Source of the DNA: Rubrobacter taiwanensis
GTDB lineage: Bacteria > Actinomycetota > Rubrobacteria > Rubrobacterales > Rubrobacteraceae
DNA length: 64,000 nt
Assembly (NCBI RefSeq): GCF_004337705.1
Contig: NZ_SKBU01000014.1
Span: 62,001 to 126,000, forward strand
Reading direction: 5' to 3'
Shown: positions 38,228-46,576 of the stretch, in pieces
Layout: every line of letters begins with the position of its first letter
Position numbering within the stretch: position 1 is the stretch's first letter
The notes under the pieces: generated by a model
Told to the model about the DNA's origin: nothing
Seen by the model: only the letters and a program-made list of their open reading frames with translations
Databases searched by the model: none
Made by a program: the position numbers and the translations under genes

Positions 38228-38913
38228 AAGAGCTGCTCCGCACCCCGGTAACCTCCGCCCTCATACTCGCCTGCGTCGCGGTCTACGTCGGCGTCGCGGC
38301 ACTGAGCGCTCTGGCCGGTGCCTCATTCGTCGGCGCGCTCGTCAGCCCGCCGCTCGGAGCGCTGGTCTTCGCCGGCGCCGTAGCCCCGGTGCTGGTCGCC
38401 GACGGCGAAGTCTGGCGGCTCGGCAGCAGCATGCTGCTGCACGGCAGCTTCGCCCACCTGGCGGTGAACATGATCGCGCTCTTCTTCCTCGGCACCTTCG
38501 CCGAGAGCGTGCTGGGCCGCGCGAAGTTCCTGGCGCTCTTTCTGGTGAGCGGCCTCTCCGGAGGCATAGCGCTGCTCTACTTCGGCAGCTTCGACACCCC
38601 GGCCGTCGGAGCCTCGGGAGCCATCTTCGGCCTCGTCGGCGGCATCCTGGGACTGGCGCTGCGCCAGGGCACCTTCTCCTGGCAGAACCCCATCATCCGC
38701 CAGCTCCTGATCCTGACGGTCATAAACCTCTTCATCGGAGCGTCCATCCCCCAGGTCAGCAACACGGCTCACGTCGGCGGTCTCGTCGGCGGCGCGCTGT
38801 TCGGTTGGCTGGTCTCCGATGCCGCCTTCCAGCGCCGCAGCGCCTTGCCCCCAACCCTCATCTTCCTCGGCCTCGAAGCCGCCCTGATAGCCTTCTGGCT
38901 GCTCACCCTCTAG
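38224..38913 (+). CDS. Rhomboid-family intramembrane serine protease, apparent CTG start
   Basis: Rhomboids cleave membrane helices with a Ser-His dyad. The protein has the first helix ([21 protein letters not shown]), [20 protein letters not shown], the catalytic GASGAIFG serine in helix 4, and the helix 6 His in [15 protein letters not shown]. The first canonical start, GTG 38389, lies after the first helix and would delete it. The frame is open back to 38209 with no ATG, GTG or TTG. A CTG at 38224 overlaps the previous stop (CTGA), giving 229 residues. The start is inferred. The 3' end overlaps the convergent Fur gene by 11 nt. Confidence 0.82.
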
Positions 38914-39289
38914 CACAGGCCGGACACCGCCCGTACAGAGTCAGATGGTGCTCCTCGACCGTGTAGCCACCCGGCAAACGGGTGCCCCGAGGCACCCCAA
39001 CCGGACATACCTCCAGATCAAACACCCCCCCGCACCCCGAACACCGGAAGTGGTGGTGGTGCCCGATCCCGGCCGCCTCATAGCGCCGCTCCTCCCCCGG
39101 CAGACTTACCACCACCACCTTCCCCTCCTCCAGCAAAAGATTCAGCGCCCGGTAAACGGTAGCTATCCCTAACCCCGGCAACTCATCCGAAGCCCGCTCG
39201 TGTATCTGCCCGACCGCCAGCGGCCCCTCGGCGCTGAGGATGGTATTGAGAATTGCCTCTCTCTGTTTCGTCCGCCGTACCCGGCTCAT
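38903..39289 (-). CDS. Fur-family metalloregulator
   Basis: This is a metal- or peroxide-sensing repressor. The 128-residue protein has the winged helix ([15 protein letters not shown] to [19 protein letters not shown]), the [14 protein letters not shown] metal motif and two CxxC pairs (CSGC, CPAC) for the structural zinc. The ATG at 39289 follows GGAGG; an upstream extension lacks Fur similarity. Whether it senses Fe, Mn/peroxide or another metal cannot be told. It is divergent from the DsrE/FeoB-like cassette, with a palindrome between them. It is distinct from the Zur at 46181-46576. Confidence 0.9.
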
Positions 39290-39354
39290 CTTCCTCCCTG
39301 CCTCGCTATCCGCCCCCTCACAGCAATCTCTACGCGATATTTTTACCCCTCCCA

Positions 39355-39383
39355 TTGACAACCGCAAAGTCTCGCCCTTTAAT
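39355..39383 (+). promoter_or_regulatory. Promoter of the DsrE/FeoB-like cassette
   Basis: A perfect TTGACA (39355-39360), a 17-nt spacer and TTTAAT (39378-39383) form a near-consensus sigma-70-type promoter. The start point would fall near 39390, inside the inverted repeat, leaving a leader of about 47 nt. Confidence 0.75.
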
Positions 39384-39400
39384 GATAACAATTTATCATT
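39381..39400. promoter_or_regulatory. Candidate Fur-family operator, perfect 8-4-8 inverted repeat
   Basis: AATGATAA-CAAT-TTATCATT is a perfect inverted repeat that overlaps the -10 and start point of the cassette promoter. The TGATAA/TTATCA half-sites resemble Fur boxes, but the symmetry differs from the classical odd-length 7-1-7 box. The nearest regulator gene is the Fur homologue 91 nt away, so autoregulation and repression of the cassette are both inferred. Confidence 0.65.
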
Positions 39401-39436
39401 TATATCGAGCGCTATGGGCTACGAGGAGGTAGATCG

Positions 39437-39802
39437 GTGAAGGTTGCGTACATCTTCAGCACTTCGGGGCACACGGCGAGCTACAAGCTGGGGCGCATGA
39501 TTCTGCCGCAGCTGGAGGAGGGTAGTCACGGGGCCGAGGTGGTTGGGATGTTCTTCTTCGACGACAACACGTACATTCTGCGTGCTGGAGATCCGCTAGG
39601 CGAGCGGCTGGCGAGTGTGGCGGCCGAGCGGGGCATTCTGCTCATGCTCTGTGACCGGTGTGCGTTGGAGCGTGGTCTCGCCGAGGGTGAGCCCCTCGAT
39701 GCCCGGCCTGTGGGGACCGTCAGAGGGGTCAGGGTGGGGTGTTTCCCGGATCTCTACGGTGCCCTCTCCGATGACCCGCCCCAGCAGGTGATTACTCTCT
39801 GA
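39437..39802 (+). CDS. DsrE-like protein with CxxC motif
   Basis: The 121-residue product begins VAYIFSTSGHTASYKLGRMILPQLEEG and has a CDRC motif at 72-75 and Cys102 in VGCFPDLY. This suits the DsrE/DsrF fold of small sulfur-carrier-type proteins. The details recall a DsrE-related family I remember as SaoD, predicted from comparative genomics to belong to organometal-handling clusters; I cannot verify this. The GTG start has GAGGAGG upstream. First gene of the cassette. The role may be thiol or metal transfer in the cytoplasm. Confidence 0.7.
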   Translation: MKVAYIFSTSGHTASYKLGRMILPQLEEGSHGAEVVGMFFFDDNTYILRAGDPLGERLASVAAERGILLMLCDRCALERGLAEGEPLDARPVGTVRGVRVGCFPDLYGALSDDPPQQVITL

Positions 39803-39811
39803 GAGGGTGGG

Positions 39812-40006
39812 GTGAAGGGGAAGCTCAAGAGCGCGCCGCCCGACGCCGCTGGGATGCGGCGGCGTGTGGAGGAGGCCCTGCTTAAAGAGGCGCTGGGCCT
39901 GGAGCTCACCGGGCGGGAGCGCAGGATCGTGCAGTGGGTCCGCAACGGCAACGGTTGTGTGGCCTGCGCGATGATCTCCCGGGAGATTGCGGGACGGAGG
40001 ACATAG
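39812..40006 (+). CDS. Unknown 64-residue CxxC protein
   Basis: Not recognised. The basic, helical peptide has a CVAC motif at 49-52 near its C-terminus (GNGCVACAMISREIAG), the only cysteines in it. The GTG start has GAGGGTGGG just upstream, 9 nt after the DsrE-like stop. The frame, spacing and cysteine pair suggest a small redox or metal-binding partner of its neighbours. Confidence 0.6.
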   Translation: MKGKLKSAPPDAAGMRRRVEEALLKEALGLELTGRERRIVQWVRNGNGCVACAMISREIAGRRT

Positions 40007-40580
40007 AAAGACCCGGCAGCTATCGCGGCTGGAGATCCCGGGCGGGGTTCGGAAGATGGGTCGGGCGTTGCTGGACCAGCAGCTCTGGTGCTGGGGCCGG
40101 GATATAGTCCGTCCGCAGGGGAACGTTCTGCTGCGGTACGGCTTCTCCCGCTCGCGGCCGCCGGAGGGCAGGTTCGGAAGCAGCGCCTACACCCTGCGCC
40201 CGGACCCGCGCATCAGGATCACGCTCTGGGGCTTCGGAGTCTTCTACGGGAGCGCCGGCTCCGGCGGGCTCTTTCTCAAGCGCCGGTCCTTCAGCCCGCT
40301 GCTCACCCCGCAACCGGACCCCGGAGGCGCCTGGAGCCAGGCCGATCTGCCTCCGGTGCACTCCCCGGCGAGCCGGGAGGAGTGCCGGACCGCCCGCCGC
40401 CTCTTGTGCGACGTTCTGGGCTGGATAGCGGAGTACGAACGCTGGGTGCGCACCGAACTCGGGCCGGACCACCGGCGGCTCTGCGTCGCCGAGTGGCCGA
40501 AGGCCGCGCTCCCGGCGGATGAGATGGCCGAGGGCTGGCTGAAGCTGGCCCGCTTCTTCGAGGAGGAAGAGAGTGCGTGA
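39987..40580 (+). CDS. Unknown protein of about 175-197 residues, cassette gene 3
   Basis: I do not recognise a family. Conserved-looking aromatic segments are LLDQQLWCWGRDI, LLRYGFSRSRPPEG, ITLWGFGVFYG and GGLFLKRRSF. An arginine/tryptophan-rich helical end follows (WIAEYERWV). No membrane helix or signal peptide. It may start at TTG 39987, overlapping the previous gene by 20 nt, or at ATG 40056 (GRALLDQQLWCWG). It overlaps the next gene by 8 nt, implying tight coupling in the cassette. Confidence 0.6.
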   Translation: MRDGGHRKTRQLSRLEIPGGVRKMGRALLDQQLWCWGRDIVRPQGNVLLRYGFSRSRPPEGRFGSSAYTLRPDPRIRITLWGFGVFYGSAGSGGLFLKRRSFSPLLTPQPDPGGAWSQADLPPVHSPASREECRTARRLLCDVLGWIAEYERWVRTELGPDHRRLCVAEWPKAALPADEMAEGWLKLARFFEEEESA

Positions 40581-41685
40581 GCTGGACGTGGCCGTAGTCG
40601 GGGCCGGAGCCGCTGGCATCGGCTGCGGGGTGGTGCTGGATGACCTGGAGCTGGACTTCGAGATCCTGGAACGCTACGAGATCGGAAGCTCCTTCGAGCG
40701 CTGGCCGGAGGAGATGCGCTTCATAACCCCCTCGTTCACCGGCAACGCGTTCGGCGCGATGGACCTGAACGCGATCGCTCCCGGCACCTCGCCGGCCTAC
40801 ACGCTGGGCTGCGAGCACCCCACCGGCCGGGAGTACGCCCGCTACCTGCGCGGGGTCGCCGACTACTTCGAGCTGCCCGTCCGGACCGGGGTGGAGGTCC
40901 ACGACGTGCAGCCGCTGCCGGAGGGAGGCTTCGAGCTCGATACCTCCCGGGGGGAGCTGCGCAGCCGCTTCGTGGTGTGGGCCGCCGGCGAGTTCCAGTA
41001 CCCGGACCTGACTCCGTTCCCCGGCGCGGAGCAGCTCTGCCGCCACAGCTCGCTCGTGCGCTCCTGGCGCGCGGTGGAGGGCGACGAGATCTTGGTCATC
41101 GGCGGCTACGAGAGCGGGCTGGACGCCGCGATCCACCTCAGCGCGAGCGGCCGGCGCGTGCGCGTGCTGGACGCCGCGGCGAGCTGGGACGCCGACGACA
41201 GCGACCCGAGCCTCACGCTCTCTCCCTACACCCGGGAGCGGCTGGAGGCTGCCGCAGCTACGGGCCGCATCGAGCTCGTCGGCGACGCCCGGGTGGAGTC
41301 GGTGGAGCGTGCGGACTCCTCCGGCTACGCCGTACACGCCGCCGGCGGCCGGAAGTGGAGCACGGCCGCTCCACCCATCCTGGCCACAGGTTTCGCCGGG
41401 AGTCTGCGCCGGATCTCCGCGCTCTTCGAGTGGGAGAACGGCCACGCGGTGCTCACCGGAGAGGACGAGTCCACCGTTGTCCCGGGGCTCTTCGTGGTCG
41501 GGCCCGAGGTGCGGCATGGAGCTGCGATCTTCTGCTTCATCTACAAGTTCCGTCAGCGGTTCGCCGTGGTCGCCCGCGCTATCGCCGAGCGTCTCGGGGC
41601 GGATACCTCGATCCTGGACCTCTACCGGCAGCACGGTCTCCTGCTGGACGACCTCTCCTGCTGCGAAGACGAGTGCGTCTGCTAG
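40573..41685 (+). CDS. FAD/NAD(P)-dependent oxidoreductase with four-cysteine C-terminal tail
   Basis: The 370-residue flavoprotein has an FAD Rossmann motif GAGAAG at 10-15, a second NAD(P) site GGYESG at 177-182, and an ATGF segment near 275. The family is that of YpdA/CzcO-like reductases and monooxygenases. The last ten residues end CCEDECVC (Cys363, 364, 368, 370). This recalls the C-terminal vicinal cysteines that mercuric reductase uses to deliver metal, though the overall sequence is not MerA-like. It overlaps the preceding gene by 8 nt and abuts the FeoB-like gene. The substrate is unknown; a thiol-bound metal or a low-molecular-weight disulfide is plausible. Confidence 0.8.
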   Translation: MRELDVAVVGAGAAGIGCGVVLDDLELDFEILERYEIGSSFERWPEEMRFITPSFTGNAFGAMDLNAIAPGTSPAYTLGCEHPTGREYARYLRGVADYFELPVRTGVEVHDVQPLPEGGFELDTSRGELRSRFVVWAAGEFQYPDLTPFPGAEQLCRHSSLVRSWRAVEGDEILVIGGYESGLDAAIHLSASGRRVRVLDAAASWDADDSDPSLTLSPYTRERLEAAAATGRIELVGDARVESVERADSSGYAVHAAGGRKWSTAAPPILATGFAGSLRRISALFEWENGHAVLTGEDESTVVPGLFVVGPEVRHGAAIFCFIYKFRQRFAVVARAIAERLGADTSILDLYRQHGLLLDDLSCCEDECVC

Positions 41686-43311
41686 ATGCGCGCGCCGGTC
41701 ACGACCAGGACGGTGGTAGCCGTCGGCAAGGAGAGCGCCGGCAAGTCGCGCCTCATCTCCTCGCTGACCGGCCGCAGCGCCCGAAGCTCCAACTTCCGCG
41801 GCACGACCGTGGCCTGCGAAGAGTACAGGTGCGGGGAGTACACCTTCGTGGACACACCGGGGATCTCGCGCGAGAGCGACGGGGCGGCCGTCTGCGAAGC
41901 TCTGGAACGCCTGGGCCCCGGAGACCCCGTCCTGCTGGTCGTCCCGGCCACGCATCTCGACGAGGACCTGCGGGACCTACTGCCTCTCGTCGAGGGCCGC
42001 CGGGGAGCCGTGGTAATCACGCACCGGGACCGGGTAAGCGCCGCCCCGGAGGCGCTGGAGCGCCTGAGGCGCGAATCGGGGCTGCGTTTCATCCCCGTAG
42101 ACGCCCGCCACCTGGGACCCCGGGAGCGGGAGGAGGTCCTGGCGGCCCTGGGCGAGCCGGCCCGCTTCCCCGGTAGCGTCCGCCAGCGGGTGGGATGGCG
42201 CATAGAGCCCCGCGCGACGGTGCTGGAGCGACCCCGGCTGGGGCCGCTCCTCGCGCTACTCCTGCTCCTGGCTCCGGCCGTACTCTCCGTGTGGATCGCC
42301 AACACCTTCGCCGGCCTGGTGGAGCCGGCGGCCGAAACGCTGACCGCTCCCCCGGCCGCTGCCGCCGGCAACCTGCCGGAGCCGCTGCGGGAGGTCCTGG
42401 CCGGAGACTACGGGCTGCTGACCATGGGGCCGCTGCTCTTCGTGTGGGCCGTACCCACCGTGCTCGCCTTCGCCCTCTTCCTCGGCGCGTACAAGGCCAG
42501 CGGCCTCCTGGACCGCACCACCTCCGCCGTGCACCCCCTGCTGCGGCCCTTCGGGCTCGGCGGCCGGGACCTGGCGCGCGTGGTGATGGGCTTCGGCTGC
42601 AACGTGCCGGCCATGATCAACGCTCGCTCCTGTTCCGGCTGCTCGCGCGGCACTTGCGTCTCGGCCATAGCCTTCGGCTCCGCCTGCTCCTACCAGCTCG
42701 GAGCTACACTCGGGGTCCTGGCCGCCGCCGGCCTCCCCCACCTCGCGCTCCCCTATCTGCTCTACCTGGGCCTTACCACCCTCGTGTACACCCGGCTCAC
42801 CTCCCCGCCCGAGGCGCGCTCCCCCCTGGACCTCCTGCCCACCGGCCGCCGCATCTTCCTGCAGCCTCCGGCACCCGCCGCCGTGTGGAGCGAAGCGCGA
42901 AACACCCTGAACATGTTCTTCCGGCAGGCGGTCCCGGTCTTCCTCGCCATAACCGCCGCAGCCTCAGTACTCAACTGGCTCGGCGCGGTCCCGGCCGCAG
43001 CCCGCCTGCTCTCCCCGGCCATGAGCCTCTTCAACCTGCCGGCGGAGGCCGCCCTGCCCGTGGTTCTGGCCTCGATCCGCAAGGACGGCATCCTGCTCCT
43101 CGCCGAAGGCTCCCTGCTGGAGAGCCTGACCCCGCTCCAGGTCCTCACCGGCGTGTACCTGGCGGGCGTGCTGCTCCCCTGCCTGGTGACCGCCCTCACC
43201 ATAGCGCGCGAGCACTCCCGGACCTTCGCCCTGAAGCTGCTCGCGCGCCAGGCCCTCTTCGCAGCGGCCTTCGCCGCGATCCTGGGCTGGGCCGGCCGGC
43301 CGTTTCTCTAA
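41686..43311 (+). CDS. FeoB-like permease with cysteine-rich gate and degenerate GTPase
   Basis: The 541-residue protein has an N-terminal G domain: P-loop GKESAGKS at 14-21, GTT near 39-41, DTPG at 56-59. The G4 position reads THRD (112-115) instead of NKxD. A membrane part with two nucleoside-recognition/Gate units follows. The first, MGFGCNVPAMINARS at 301-315, matches FeoB's gate motif, but it continues CSGCSRGTC (Cys316, 319, 324) plus Cys334. Canonical FeoB lacks these extra cysteines. No FeoA is adjacent. The start follows the previous stop directly. It is probably a transporter for a thiophilic metal or metalloid rather than plain ferrous iron; the direction is unknown. Confidence 0.8.
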   Translation: MRAPVTTRTVVAVGKESAGKSRLISSLTGRSARSSNFRGTTVACEEYRCGEYTFVDTPGISRESDGAAVCEALERLGPGDPVLLVVPATHLDEDLRDLLPLVEGRRGAVVITHRDRVSAAPEALERLRRESGLRFIPVDARHLGPREREEVLAALGEPARFPGSVRQRVGWRIEPRATVLERPRLGPLLALLLLLAPAVLSVWIANTFAGLVEPAAETLTAPPAAAAGNLPEPLREVLAGDYGLLTMGPLLFVWAVPTVLAFALFLGAYKASGLLDRTTSAVHPLLRPFGLGGRDLARVVMGFGCNVPAMINARSCSGCSRGTCVSAIAFGSACSYQLGATLGVLAAAGLPHLALPYLLYLGLTTLVYTRLTSPPEARSPLDLLPTGRRIFLQPPAPAAVWSEARNTLNMFFRQAVPVFLAITAAASVLNWLGAVPAAARLLSPAMSLFNLPAEAALPVVLASIRKDGILLLAEGSLLESLTPLQVLTGVYLAGVLLPCLVTALTIAREHSRTFALKLLARQALFAAAFAAILGWAGRPFL

Positions 43312-43479: not shown

Positions 43480-44325
43480 TCAGTGCGAGGGGCCGGGGAT
43501 GGAGGCGGCCTTCCGGACGCGCCCGGTAACAGCCAGGGTGACGAGGAAGATGGCCGTGGCGACCAGGATAATGGAGGCTCCGGAGGCGGCAGCCGCGTAG
43601 TAAGAGAGATAGATGCCCAAAACGGCCGAGAGGCTCCCGATGGCGCAGCTCGCCAGGATCATGTGGTGAAACCGGCGGGTAATGAGATAGGCCGTGGCCG
43701 CGGGGGTGACCAGCAGCGCCACGACCATCACGATGCCGACTGCCTGTATGGAAGTCACTATGGTGACGCCCAGCAGCCCTAGAAGCAGGTAGTTGAGCGC
43801 CCCGGCCGGGAGCCCGGAGGCGGCTGCGACCGTCGGATCGAAGGCCACGAAGAGCAGCTGGCGGTAGAAGGCGAACACGACCAGCAGTACCAGAGCCCCC
43901 AGAATACCTATCGTCCAGAGGTCACCCGCGGTTATGGAGAGCACGTCTCCGAAGAGGTACCCGAAGAGGTCCACCGTGTACGCCTCCACCCGGCTGATGA
44001 CCAGGATTCCGAAGGCAAACGTTCCGGAGAAGAGGACCCCTATGGCGGTGTCGAAGCGGATCCGGCCGCGACGGCTTATGGCCCCGATCCCGAGCGCCGT
44101 ACCCATGGCGAAGATGAACGCGCCGAGGTAGACGTTAGCCCCCAGCACGAAGGCGAGCGCTACCCCGCCGAAGCTGGCGTGCGCCAGCCCGTCCCCGATG
44201 AACGCCAGACCTTTGAGCACCACAAAGCTGCCCAGAATGCCGCAGGCGATGGCGACCAGCACCGCAGCTATGAGTCCCCGCTGCATGAACCCGAACTCCA
44301 GCGGCTCCAGCAGGTACCCGGCCAC
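43480..44325 (-). CDS. znuB: Zinc ABC transporter, permease
   Basis: This ABC-3-family permease moves zinc (possibly manganese) across the membrane. The 281-residue protein has about eight helices and family motifs LKGLAFIGDGLAHASFGGVAL and VVALLVTPAATAYLI. The GTG start lies 2 nt after znuC. The Zur boxes upstream of the operon argue for zinc as the substrate. Confidence 0.93.
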   Translation of the reverse strand: MAGYLLEPLEFGFMQRGLIAAVLVAIACGILGSFVVLKGLAFIGDGLAHASFGGVALAFVLGANVYLGAFIFAMGTALGIGAISRRGRIRFDTAIGVLFSGTFAFGILVISRVEAYTVDLFGYLFGDVLSITAGDLWTIGILGALVLLVVFAFYRQLLFVAFDPTVAAASGLPAGALNYLLLGLLGVTIVTSIQAVGIVMVVALLVTPAATAYLITRRFHHMILASCAIGSLSAVLGIYLSYYAAAASGASIILVATAIFLVTLAVTGRVRKAASIPGPSH

Positions 44326-44327
44326 CG

Positions 44328-45092
44328 TCAGCCCTCCTCTATCGCCACCGTGCGGCCGCCGACGTCGATGATCCTGAGGTGGCTCCCGTACGCCGCGTTG
44401 AGCAGCTCCGGCGTGAACACCTCATCGGGCGGACCGTAAGCAACGACGCGCCGGTTGAGCAGGAGCGCCGCGTTGAAGCGTTCGGTCACGCAGGTGAGAT
44501 CGTGCGTGGTGACAAGCACCGTCTTCCCCCGGTCCTGCAGCCGGCGCAGTAGGTCGAAGATCTCGTGCTGCGCCAGCGCGTCCACCCCGGAGACCGGCTC
44601 GTCCAGGAGCAGGATCTCAGCCTCCTGAGCCAGCGCGCGCGCCAGGAAGACCCGCTGCTGCTGGCCGCCGGAGAGCTCGCCGATCCTGGCCTCCGCGTGG
44701 TCCGCCATCCCGACCGTCTCCAGCGCACCCGTGACGAGCTCGCGGTCACGCCGGGAGGGCTGGCGCAAAAGCCCCAGCGCGGGCACCCGCCCCATCATCA
44801 CCACGTCGAAGACGCTGACCGGGAAGTTCCAATCCACCTCTTCCCGCTGCGGCACGTAGCCCACCAGCCGCCGCACGCGCCGGCGCGGTTTGCGGCCCAG
44901 AATCTCGACCTCGCCCGCCTCATAGGGCACCAGACCCAGAAGGGCTTTGACGAGCGTGGACTTCCCGCCGCCGTTGGGCCCGATGACCCCGACCATCGAG
45001 CCCCGGGCGACCTCCAGCGTGACGCCTTCCAGAGCCCGCCGCCCGTTGTACGCGACGCTCAGGTTGCGGACGGAGAAGGCCGAATCGTCCAA
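44328..45092 (-). CDS. znuC: Zinc ABC transporter, ATP-binding protein
   Basis: The 254-residue ATPase powers the transporter. It has Walker A GPNGGGKST near 36-44, the Q-loop YVPQREEVDW, the signature LSGGQQQRV and Walker B EILLLDEP with VSGVDALAQ, then the His switch THDL. The TTG start follows the znuA stop almost directly. Confidence 0.95.
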   Translation of the reverse strand: MDDSAFSVRNLSVAYNGRRALEGVTLEVARGSMVGVIGPNGGGKSTLVKALLGLVPYEAGEVEILGRKPRRRVRRLVGYVPQREEVDWNFPVSVFDVVMMGRVPALGLLRQPSRRDRELVTGALETVGMADHAEARIGELSGGQQQRVFLARALAQEAEILLLDEPVSGVDALAQHEIFDLLRRLQDRGKTVLVTTHDLTCVTERFNAALLLNRRVVAYGPPDEVFTPELLNAAYGSHLRIIDVGGRTVAIEEG

Positions 45093-45093
45093 C

Positions 45094-46134
45094 TCAGGTC
45101 AGCCCCTCGACCATGCGGTCTATGTTCGTGCGCATCATGCTCAAGTAGGTGTCGGCGCTCTCGTCGTCTATGAGCGTATCGGTGTACACCTCGTAGACCT
45201 CAACGCCCGCCTCCTCGGCCACGGCGTCCGCGGCGGAGCCGGAGAACTGAGGCTCGGTGAAGATGGCCCCGACCCCCTGCTCCCGGATCTGCCGCGAGAG
45301 CTCGGCGAGCTCCCGGGCGCTCGGCTCAGCCTCGGGATTCGGGAGCACCACACCGACCTCTTCGAACCCGTACCGCTCGGCCCAATACCCGAATGCCTCA
45401 TGGAAGGTGACGAGCTTGCGGTCCTCCTCGGGGATGGTCTGCGCCCGCTCCATTATGTAGGCGTCGAGCTCCTCAAGCTCCCGCAGATAAGCTTCGGCGT
45501 TCCGCTCATAGGTCCCGGCCCCCTCGGGATCCACCTCCGAAAGCGCATCCCGGATGACCTCCACGTAGTGCATGGCGTAGGTCACGTCCAGCCAGAAGTG
45601 CGGATCGCCCTCGGAGTGATCGTGCCCGTGCTCGTGGGAGTGCTCGCCTCCATGGTCATGCCCGTGCTCGTCTCCGTGGTCGTGACCATGCTCTTCTTCG
45701 TGCCCGTGGGAATGCTCGCCCTCGTGGCCGTGACCATGCTCATCCCCATGGTCGTGTGCGTGCTCCAGCGGCTCCAGGCCCTCCGAGAGCTCCACGACGC
45801 GCAGCTCGCCGCCCCCGGCGCTCTGAATGAGGCCGTCGATCCAGTCGTCCAGCCCGAGACCGTTCTTGAAGACCACCTCCGATTCCGCAATCCTGCGCGC
45901 GTCCTGCGGCGTAGCCTGGAAGGTGTGCGGGTCGCCGCCCCTCGGTACTATGCTGAACGATTCTACCCGCTCCCCACCGACCTCCCGCACGAAGTCCTCC
46001 AGAATGGGGATGGTCGCCGCAACCTGTATCCTCTCCGTCCCGGCCTCCCGGGGCTCGGCATCCCCGGCAGCGCCGCACCCCGCCGCCACAAAGATTAACA
46101 GAACCGGCAGCAGCCACACCCTCACGCTCTTCAC
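45094..46134 (-). CDS. znuA: Zinc ABC transporter, substrate-binding lipoprotein
   Basis: ZnuA captures zinc outside the membrane. The 346-residue cluster A-I binding protein has a lipoprotein signal with the lipobox VAAGC (Cys20) and a long His/Asp/Glu-rich loop (about 125-172) of HGHDH-type repeats, typical of zinc rather than manganese binders. DPHFWLDV and TFHEAFGYWAERYG carry further ligand His residues. The GTG start has AAGGAGG upstream; a Zur box lies 13 nt upstream of the start. Confidence 0.95.
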   Translation of the reverse strand: MKSVRVWLLPVLLIFVAAGCGAAGDAEPREAGTERIQVAATIPILEDFVREVGGERVESFSIVPRGGDPHTFQATPQDARRIAESEVVFKNGLGLDDWIDGLIQSAGGGELRVVELSEGLEPLEHAHDHGDEHGHGHEGEHSHGHEEEHGHDHGDEHGHDHGGEHSHEHGHDHSEGDPHFWLDVTYAMHYVEVIRDALSEVDPEGAGTYERNAEAYLRELEELDAYIMERAQTIPEEDRKLVTFHEAFGYWAERYGFEEVGVVLPNPEAEPSARELAELSRQIREQGVGAIFTEPQFSGSAADAVAEEAGVEVYEVYTDTLIDDESADTYLSMMRTNIDRMVEGLT

Positions 46135-46147
46135 AACCCTCCTTCTA

Positions 46148-46166
46148 ATTGAAACGGTTTTTCAAT
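46148..46166. promoter_or_regulatory. Zur box upstream of znuA
   Basis: ATTGAAA-CGGTT-TTTCAAT is a perfect 7-5-7 inverted repeat between the zur stop and the znuA start. Its core TGAAA-N5-TTTCA matches the actinobacterial Zur box (TGAAAAT-N-ATTTTCA type). The same core recurs before zur at 46594. Zinc-loaded Zur bound here would block znuA transcription. Confidence 0.8.
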
Positions 46167-46180
46167 AGCGGATAAAATTT

Positions 46181-46576
46181 TTACCCCCGGCATCCTCCGC
46201 AGAGTCCGTAAACCTCCAGCCGGTGGAAGCTGACCTCGAAGTCGGAGGCCTCCCGTGGCAGCCGCTCTTCCAGCGGGCAGTCTTCGAACTCGCTGATGGC
46301 CCCGCAGGACTGACAGATGAGGTGGTGGTGATGATCTTCGGCGAGCTCGTATCGCGGCTTGCCGTCCCCGAGGTCCAGCCTGCGCGCCAGGCCGGAGCCG
46401 CAGAGCAGGTCGAGCGTGCGGTAGATCGTGACGATCCCCACGCCCGGGCAGCGGGCCTGGATCTCGTCCACGCTCTGGTGCCGGCCGGAGGCCAGCGCCT
46501 CAATCACAGCCAGACGCTGGGGCGTGGCCCTGTACCCCAGACCGCGAATCTTGCCCACCGTGGTTCGAAAACTCAG
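46181..46576 (-). CDS. zur: Zinc uptake regulator Zur, Fur family, probable CTG start
   Basis: Zur represses zinc uptake genes when zinc is plentiful. The protein has the winged helix (RATPQRLAVIEALASGRH, GIVTIYRTLDLLCGSGLARRL), DHHHHLICQSCG and a C-terminal CGGC, giving regulatory and structural zinc sites. The nearest canonical start is GTG 46558, which has no ribosome-binding site at normal spacing. A CTG at 46576, giving LSFRTTVGKIRGLGY and 131 residues, has AGGAGG exactly 7 nt upstream, so I place the start there. Zur boxes flank it on both sides, implying autoregulation. Confidence 0.88.
   Translation of the reverse strand: MSFRTTVGKIRGLGYRATPQRLAVIEALASGRHQSVDEIQARCPGVGIVTIYRTLDLLCGSGLARRLDLGDGKPRYELAEDHHHHLICQSCGAISEFEDCPLEERLPREASDFEVSFHRLEVYGLCGGCRG

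Follow-up and report, generated by a model that had tools for sequence, protein, structure and literature searches.

Which metal does a compact run of cysteine-rich genes in Rubrobacter taiwanensis serve, and by what route? The genes lie in a 64,000-nucleotide stretch of contig NZ_SKBU01000014.1 (positions 62,001 to 126,000; hereafter the window), where five tightly spaced plus-strand genes (39437–43311) are divergent to a minus-strand Fur-family gene, fur1. Judging from the sequence, this cassette is very probably switched on at zinc shortage, and it is probably a Zur-repressed zinc-starvation operon in which a FeoB-type Zn(II) permease and a thiol-reducing flavoprotein have DsrE and CxxC proteins as thiol partners. 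A check of the open reading frames (ORFs) bore out the anatomy given in an initial annotation of this DNA, with spacings of +9, −20, −8 and 0 nt within the operon and the cysteine motifs CDRC, CVAC, CCEDECVC and CSGCSRGTC. That annotation had also described a metal cassette under Fur-family control, with a FeoB-like Gate permease and a cysteine-tailed flavoprotein, in a version that uses cysteine only, and these points hold as well. The terminator that it placed at the operon end is unconvincing: the G+C hairpin there is short, its T run is poor, and a terminator scan gave no signal over background. We regard all five ORFs as real genes and not chance frames because each has homologues and the key cysteines are kept across phyla.

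Zur boxes mark genes that are expressed at low zinc, and the divergent promoter shared by fur1 and dsrE contains such a palindrome, AATGATAA-CAAT-TTATCATT. In pattern searches of the 3.04-Mb genome this was the single perfect copy of TGATAAN4TTATCA. The only site with one mismatch lies ∼76 bp 5′ of a gene whose product is a secreted, His-rich protein of 100 residues (L123:1873-2175, G000:C32) with an LPDSG-type C-terminal anchor, possibly a surface zinc trap. Sites with two mismatches number six, which is near chance level (a reversed-pattern control gave five in all), so chance sites are expected in this class. One of the six lies between divergently transcribed genes, for a cysteine-free S14 on one side and for a SlyD-like protein and a COG0523 GTPase on the other. 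This GTPase is the sole strong COG0523 protein of the genome. The housekeeping copy of S14 lies in the L5-S14-S8 cluster and, with its CQRC and CRIC motifs, belongs to the zinc-ribbon type. Cysteine-free ribosomal paralogues and COG0523 proteins typify Zur regulons (PMC2770081, PMC6103462); the S14/COG0523 pair and the His-rich protein would be further targets that share the Zur-type operator with the cassette.

The operator itself has close counterparts. Band-shift-tested Zur operators of Corynebacterium glutamicum include TAATGATAACGGTTATCATTT, that of cg0042 (PMC2823685), which the operator found here matches at 19 of 21 bases, plus one inserted central base. The classical 7-1-7 Fur/Zur box was not found in the window, which holds the N6-spaced box instead. 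This form, TGATA-N6-TATCA with at most one mismatch, also precedes dsrE in three related genomes, by 38–41 bp in two and by 147 bp in the third, with a chance probability of ≤0.01 in each when judged against its own shuffled upstream region. A Fur1 orthologue with 63–66% identity lies near DsrE at two related loci (L005, L006). Because the operator matches that of C. glutamicum, other targets exist in the genome, the box is kept in relatives and a znuACB gene run is present, Fur1 would be a Zur by its regulon, though its sequence alone is silent on this. The case that the operon is a member of the predicted Zur regulon is strong. The SlyD-like protein has a His-rich C-terminal tail (L122:3186-3713; L006:4634-5113) and is co-located with COG0523 and the Fur1 orthologue, which makes it a candidate zinc carrier.

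A second line of evidence comes from the company kept by the last two genes, the flavoprotein and the permease. Among 296 Actinomycetota genomes the permease occurs in seven and the flavoprotein in eight, with both in seven (P = 2e-13) and always adjacent there; in the eighth genome the flavoprotein adjoins DsrE. The actinobacterial pairs are surrounded by Znu, Fur, ArsR with a His-rich protein, cysteine-free S14 and COG0523 genes, where ORFs in G+C-rich loci were called by codon-position scoring and with a reference set of zinc genes. Both proteins are also common on plasmids, with 499 flavoproteins and 499 permeases in Klebsiella records, 20 of each in Escherichia records, and further examples in Haloferax, Halocatena, Staphylococcus, Paenibacillus, Haloarcula and Acaryochloris. 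The Klebsiella plasmids were counted only, and gene context was taken from Pantoea, Paenibacillus, haloarchaeal, staphylococcal and cyanobacterial records. The Pantoea soli island is a textbook zinc-starvation set that runs through hemB, dihydroorotase, thrS, carbonate dehydratase, folE2, dksA, COG0523, a Fur-family repressor and cysS to the flavoprotein, the permease, 6-carboxytetrahydropterin synthase and ZigA. The order is COG0523, S14, flavoprotein, permease and L33 in Paenibacillus; COG0523, flavoprotein, S14, permease and HisI in Haloferax; and COG0523, S14 and permease in Haloarcula. The pair stands with ZigA and Fur genes in Acaryochloris, and with a zinc ABC (ATP-binding cassette) binding protein and COG0523 at staphylococcal loci. 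Counting six actinobacteria with these six genera, the pair accompanies zinc-starvation genes at nearly every locus inspected, over a range that extends from archaea to plasmids of enterobacteria. A cyanobacterium-like contig (L029) carries znuBCA, COG0523, FolE, HisI, DsrE and CysS and, farther along, the flavoprotein, a hexapeptide-repeat (gamma-carbonic-anhydrase-like) protein and the permease; it is labelled Gracilibacteria, yet its zinc regulon is of cyanobacterial type, and the bin is probably contaminated. Another recurrent neighbor of the pair or of Znu is an ArsR-family gene with a gene for a small His-rich protein after it (L151, L153, L154, L006).

At the sequence level, the permease consists of a GTPase domain (Pfam MMR_HSR1/FeoB_N) and a Gate in two stretches, and FeoB-type Gate proteins pass divalent metals. 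A comparison of 14 permeases, drawn from Actinomycetota, Cyanobacteriota, Bacillota, Pseudomonadota and Halobacteria, shows five constant cysteines, of which CSxC contributes two and the GFGCN gate motif, SACSYQ and LPCLVT one each. The third cysteine of CSGCSRGTC is threonine in other actinobacteria and haloarchaea. The flavoprotein has a Pyr_redox_3 domain and is of the CzcO type (COG2072); the tail CC-x(2-4)-C-x-C is present in all 16 flavoproteins compared. Its residues 4–370 align with PDB 3d1c (E = 8e-68), including the CCxxxCxC tail, and its scores stay below the cut-offs both for the YpdA bacillithiol disulfide reductase (TIGR04018, 82.6 bits versus 339.9) and for the ArsO flavin monooxygenase (NF040505, 58.4 versus 425). 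An AlphaFold model of the flavoprotein was poor (predicted local distance difference test, pLDDT, 61) and was not used.

These features suggest how the operon could work. Fur1 with Zn(II) would bind the operator and block both fur1 and the operon, and a drop in zinc would let the operon be made. The GTPase-Gate permease would then import Zn(II), or salvage it at the membrane, via a cysteine-lined path, while the flavoprotein, using NAD(P)H, would hold both its own cysteine tail and the permease or DsrE thiols in the reduced state, such that these thiols could accept and pass zinc. The flavoprotein may carry zinc as well, and DsrE and the CxxC peptide would be the cytosolic thiol partners that receive it. 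We tentatively propose, at somewhat less than even odds, that the cysteine-lined permease and its dedicated NAD(P)H flavoprotein form an undescribed class of zinc importer, an additional uptake route alongside ZnuABC and ZIP that bacteria, archaea and enterobacterial plasmids in their hundreds would share.

Several observations weigh against this reading. The flavoprotein occurs without the permease in G166 and in Paracoccus, where its locus holds AztABCD, a Fur-family repressor, COG0523 and CysS, hence the flavoprotein has a role of its own. This fits an account in which the regulon is the same but the pair repairs or remodels thiols, as a reductase with a membrane partner, and imports no zinc. 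Thiol sites depleted of zinc become oxidized under zinc shortage, YpdA bacillithiol reductases are the nearest relatives of the flavoprotein among characterized structures, and DsrE family proteins handle persulfides. However, what accompanies the flavoprotein, nearly always as its direct neighbor, is a FeoB-type Gate permease that has seven transmembrane-like segments, so we consider a pure repair function unlikely, if worth keeping in mind. Staphylococcal Gate proteins (L158:7041-8423; L159:7208-8365) lack the GTPase domain, the Rubrobacter box has N6 spacing versus N5 in C. glutamicum, and DsrE genes of haloarchaea lie in sulfur-transfer contexts with TusA, rhodanese and YeeE. Fur1 resembles PerR/Fur in sequence, as does Fur2, the second Fur-family regulator of the window, and the ABC transporter of the window scores equally with Mn and Zn models. 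Together with the FeoB-like architecture, these last points would suit an iron or manganese cassette, in which an iron- or peroxide-responsive Fur controls a FeoB-type importer of Fe(II). Yet the permease reaches 77.5 bits against a cut-off of 315.65 for FeoB (TIGR00437), its family scores above 570 bits (570–850) where the true FeoBs of the phylum score 152–182, and the partners of the pair are zinc-sparing paralogues, which leaves this alternative improbable.

Beyond the operon, the minus strand carries the genes of a metal ABC transporter (znuACB), whose binding protein is His-rich, and fur2 (Table 1). Fur2 has its own operator type, TTGAAAN5TTTCAA, which occurs without mismatch only twice in the genome, 5′ of fur2 and 5′ of znuA. 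Since half-sites of the TTGAAA/TTTCAA kind recur among C. glutamicum Zur sites (PMC2823685), Fur2 could be another regulator that responds to zinc.

Table 1. Features of the cassette and its surroundings, in window coordinates
Feature	Position	Strand	Remark
Fur1, Fur-family repressor	38903-39391	-	PF01475; called Zur from its regulon
Zur-type operator TAATGATAACAATTTATCATTT	39380-39401	.	between fur1 and dsrE; core TGATA-N6-TATCA at 39383-39398
DsrE/SaoD-family protein (NF040913)	39437-39802	+	C72-x2-C75 and C102 conserved
CxxC peptide, 64 residues	39812-40006	+	relatives' homologue immediately 5′ of znuA
ORF4, orphan protein	39987-40580	+	after dsrE in two further lineages
CzcO-like NAD(P)/FAD-dependent oxidoreductase	40573-41685	+	conserved CC-x(2-4)-C-x-C tail; PDB 3d1c homologue
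FeoB-like GTPase-Gate permease	41686-43311	+	invariant cysteines 305, 316, 319, 334, 499
Metal ABC transporter permease	43480-44325	-	downstream of operon, opposite strand
Metal ABC transporter ATPase	44328-45092	-	downstream of operon, opposite strand
His-rich binding protein of metal ABC transporter (znuA)	45094-46134	-	
Second operator type ATTGAAACGGTTTTTCAAT	46148-46166	.	before znuA
Fur2, second Fur-family regulator	46181-46558	-	upstream of znuACB
Second operator type TTGAAAAAATCTTTCAA	46594-46610	.	before fur2

The initial annotation had read the cassette differently, as one pathway that takes up, reduces and transports a thiophilic metal, be it mercury or another, or an organometal. 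The many clustered cysteines, the C-terminal cysteine tail of the flavoprotein and the relation of DsrE to SaoD all speak for it, and SaoD belongs to a predicted selenocysteine-assisted organometal system (Haft and Gwadz 2023, cited in PMC10418091). The kinship stood, in that DsrE reaches 192 bits against NF040913, the SaoD/DsrE ‘ELSE’ family (cut-off 152), but membership in SaoD did not, as it scores 116 bits against NF040732 with a cut-off of 169. No Mer- or Ars-type neighbor was present at any locus inspected; a MerB search was uninformative, its control being silent too. The missed SaoD cut-off and the zinc-starvation context of the operator, the other genome sites and the pair led us to reject the organometal reading, to which we assign very little probability; the metal is almost certainly zinc. 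SelB scores above its curated cut-off elsewhere in the genome (G000:C49:137645-139447, L160), so the organism probably makes selenocysteine, although the cassette itself has only cysteine.

The DsrE family accompanies zinc-starvation genes in Actinomycetota, Chloroflexota/Thermomicrobia, cyanobacteria, Verrucomicrobiota and Gemmatimonadota. Such genes lie within 6 kb of DsrE in at least 12 of the 40 closest relatives versus at least 1 of 40 more distant ones, many of the contigs being short; the distant relatives are largely gammaproteobacterial and mostly have no zinc genes nearby, and we rejected DsrE as zinc-specific on this comparison. A homologue of the CxxC peptide is present in 3/3 related genomes and lies immediately 5′ of znuA in two. 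In related Rubrobacter genomes, as in two Bryobacteraceae, ORF4 comes after dsrE; its homologues start around ORF4 residue 15, and its start may lie 3′ of 39987. Domain searches gave no match for either the CxxC peptide or ORF4. The ORF4 model is confident (pLDDT 88) and a fold search against the PDB returned no match, which makes ORF4 a candidate new fold tied to DsrE. In one Rubrobacter relative (L006) dsrE, ORF4, COG0523, WD40, the CxxC peptide, znuA, znuC and znuB run in one direction, and the WD40 propeller gene (L006:10267-11298; L007) is kept between COG0523 and CxxC peptide/znuA in relatives. Co-occurrence of all five genes, which the initial annotation had made its test, was found in part: the complete set was not found together elsewhere, but flavoprotein with permease, DsrE with ORF4, and DsrE or the CxxC peptide with Znu are conserved. 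The operon unites three modules, DsrE-ORF4, CxxC-(Znu) and flavoprotein-permease, since each of these occurs separately in other genomes.

Withholding zinc is a principal means of host defense, and the metal is often limiting in soil and water. A conserved pair with invariant cysteines and a solved relative, 3d1c, to which no function is assigned, brings a hidden zinc route within reach of direct tests; some 500 Klebsiella and 20 Escherichia plasmid records add practical weight. DsrE proteins close to SaoD can, moreover, belong to zinc instead of organometal biology. The publications on Zur regulons that were searched (PMC10957091, PMC2770081, PMC5387054, PMC6103462, PMC12058595) mention no FeoB-like protein, DsrE or matching flavoprotein, a possible exception being the C. 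glutamicum ‘oxidoreductase’ cg0795, a proven Zur target. No paper describing the pair was found, a provisional result as subscription literature was mostly outside the search. Provisionally, then, the regulon is of a known type, the pair is a new component of it and the gene combination is new.

Compared with known systems, the permease shares with FeoB the N-terminal GTPase, two Gate domains and the GFGCN motif, but it forms its own subfamily far under the FeoB cut-offs, with extra invariant cysteines in CSxC, SACSYQ and LPC, a TxxDK-like G4 motif, no FeoA and a zinc context. The flavoprotein is homologous over its full length, tail included, to 3d1c, a ‘Flavin-containing Putative Monooxygenase’ whose entry name gives no function, and unlike it has a Gate-permease partner here. 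The window DsrE sits in a sister family of SaoD, ‘SaoD/DsrE family protein’, yet it differs from the SaoD system in its score and its zinc context, and no other Sao protein has a match in the cluster. With the Zur zinc-starvation regulons (C. glutamicum PMC2823685; review PMC6103462; COG0523 survey PMC2770081) the system shares the operator, Znu, COG0523, a cysteine-free ribosomal paralogue and a secreted protein target; unlike them, it has one more base in the operator core and adds DsrE, the CxxC peptide, ORF4 and the flavoprotein/Gate pair.

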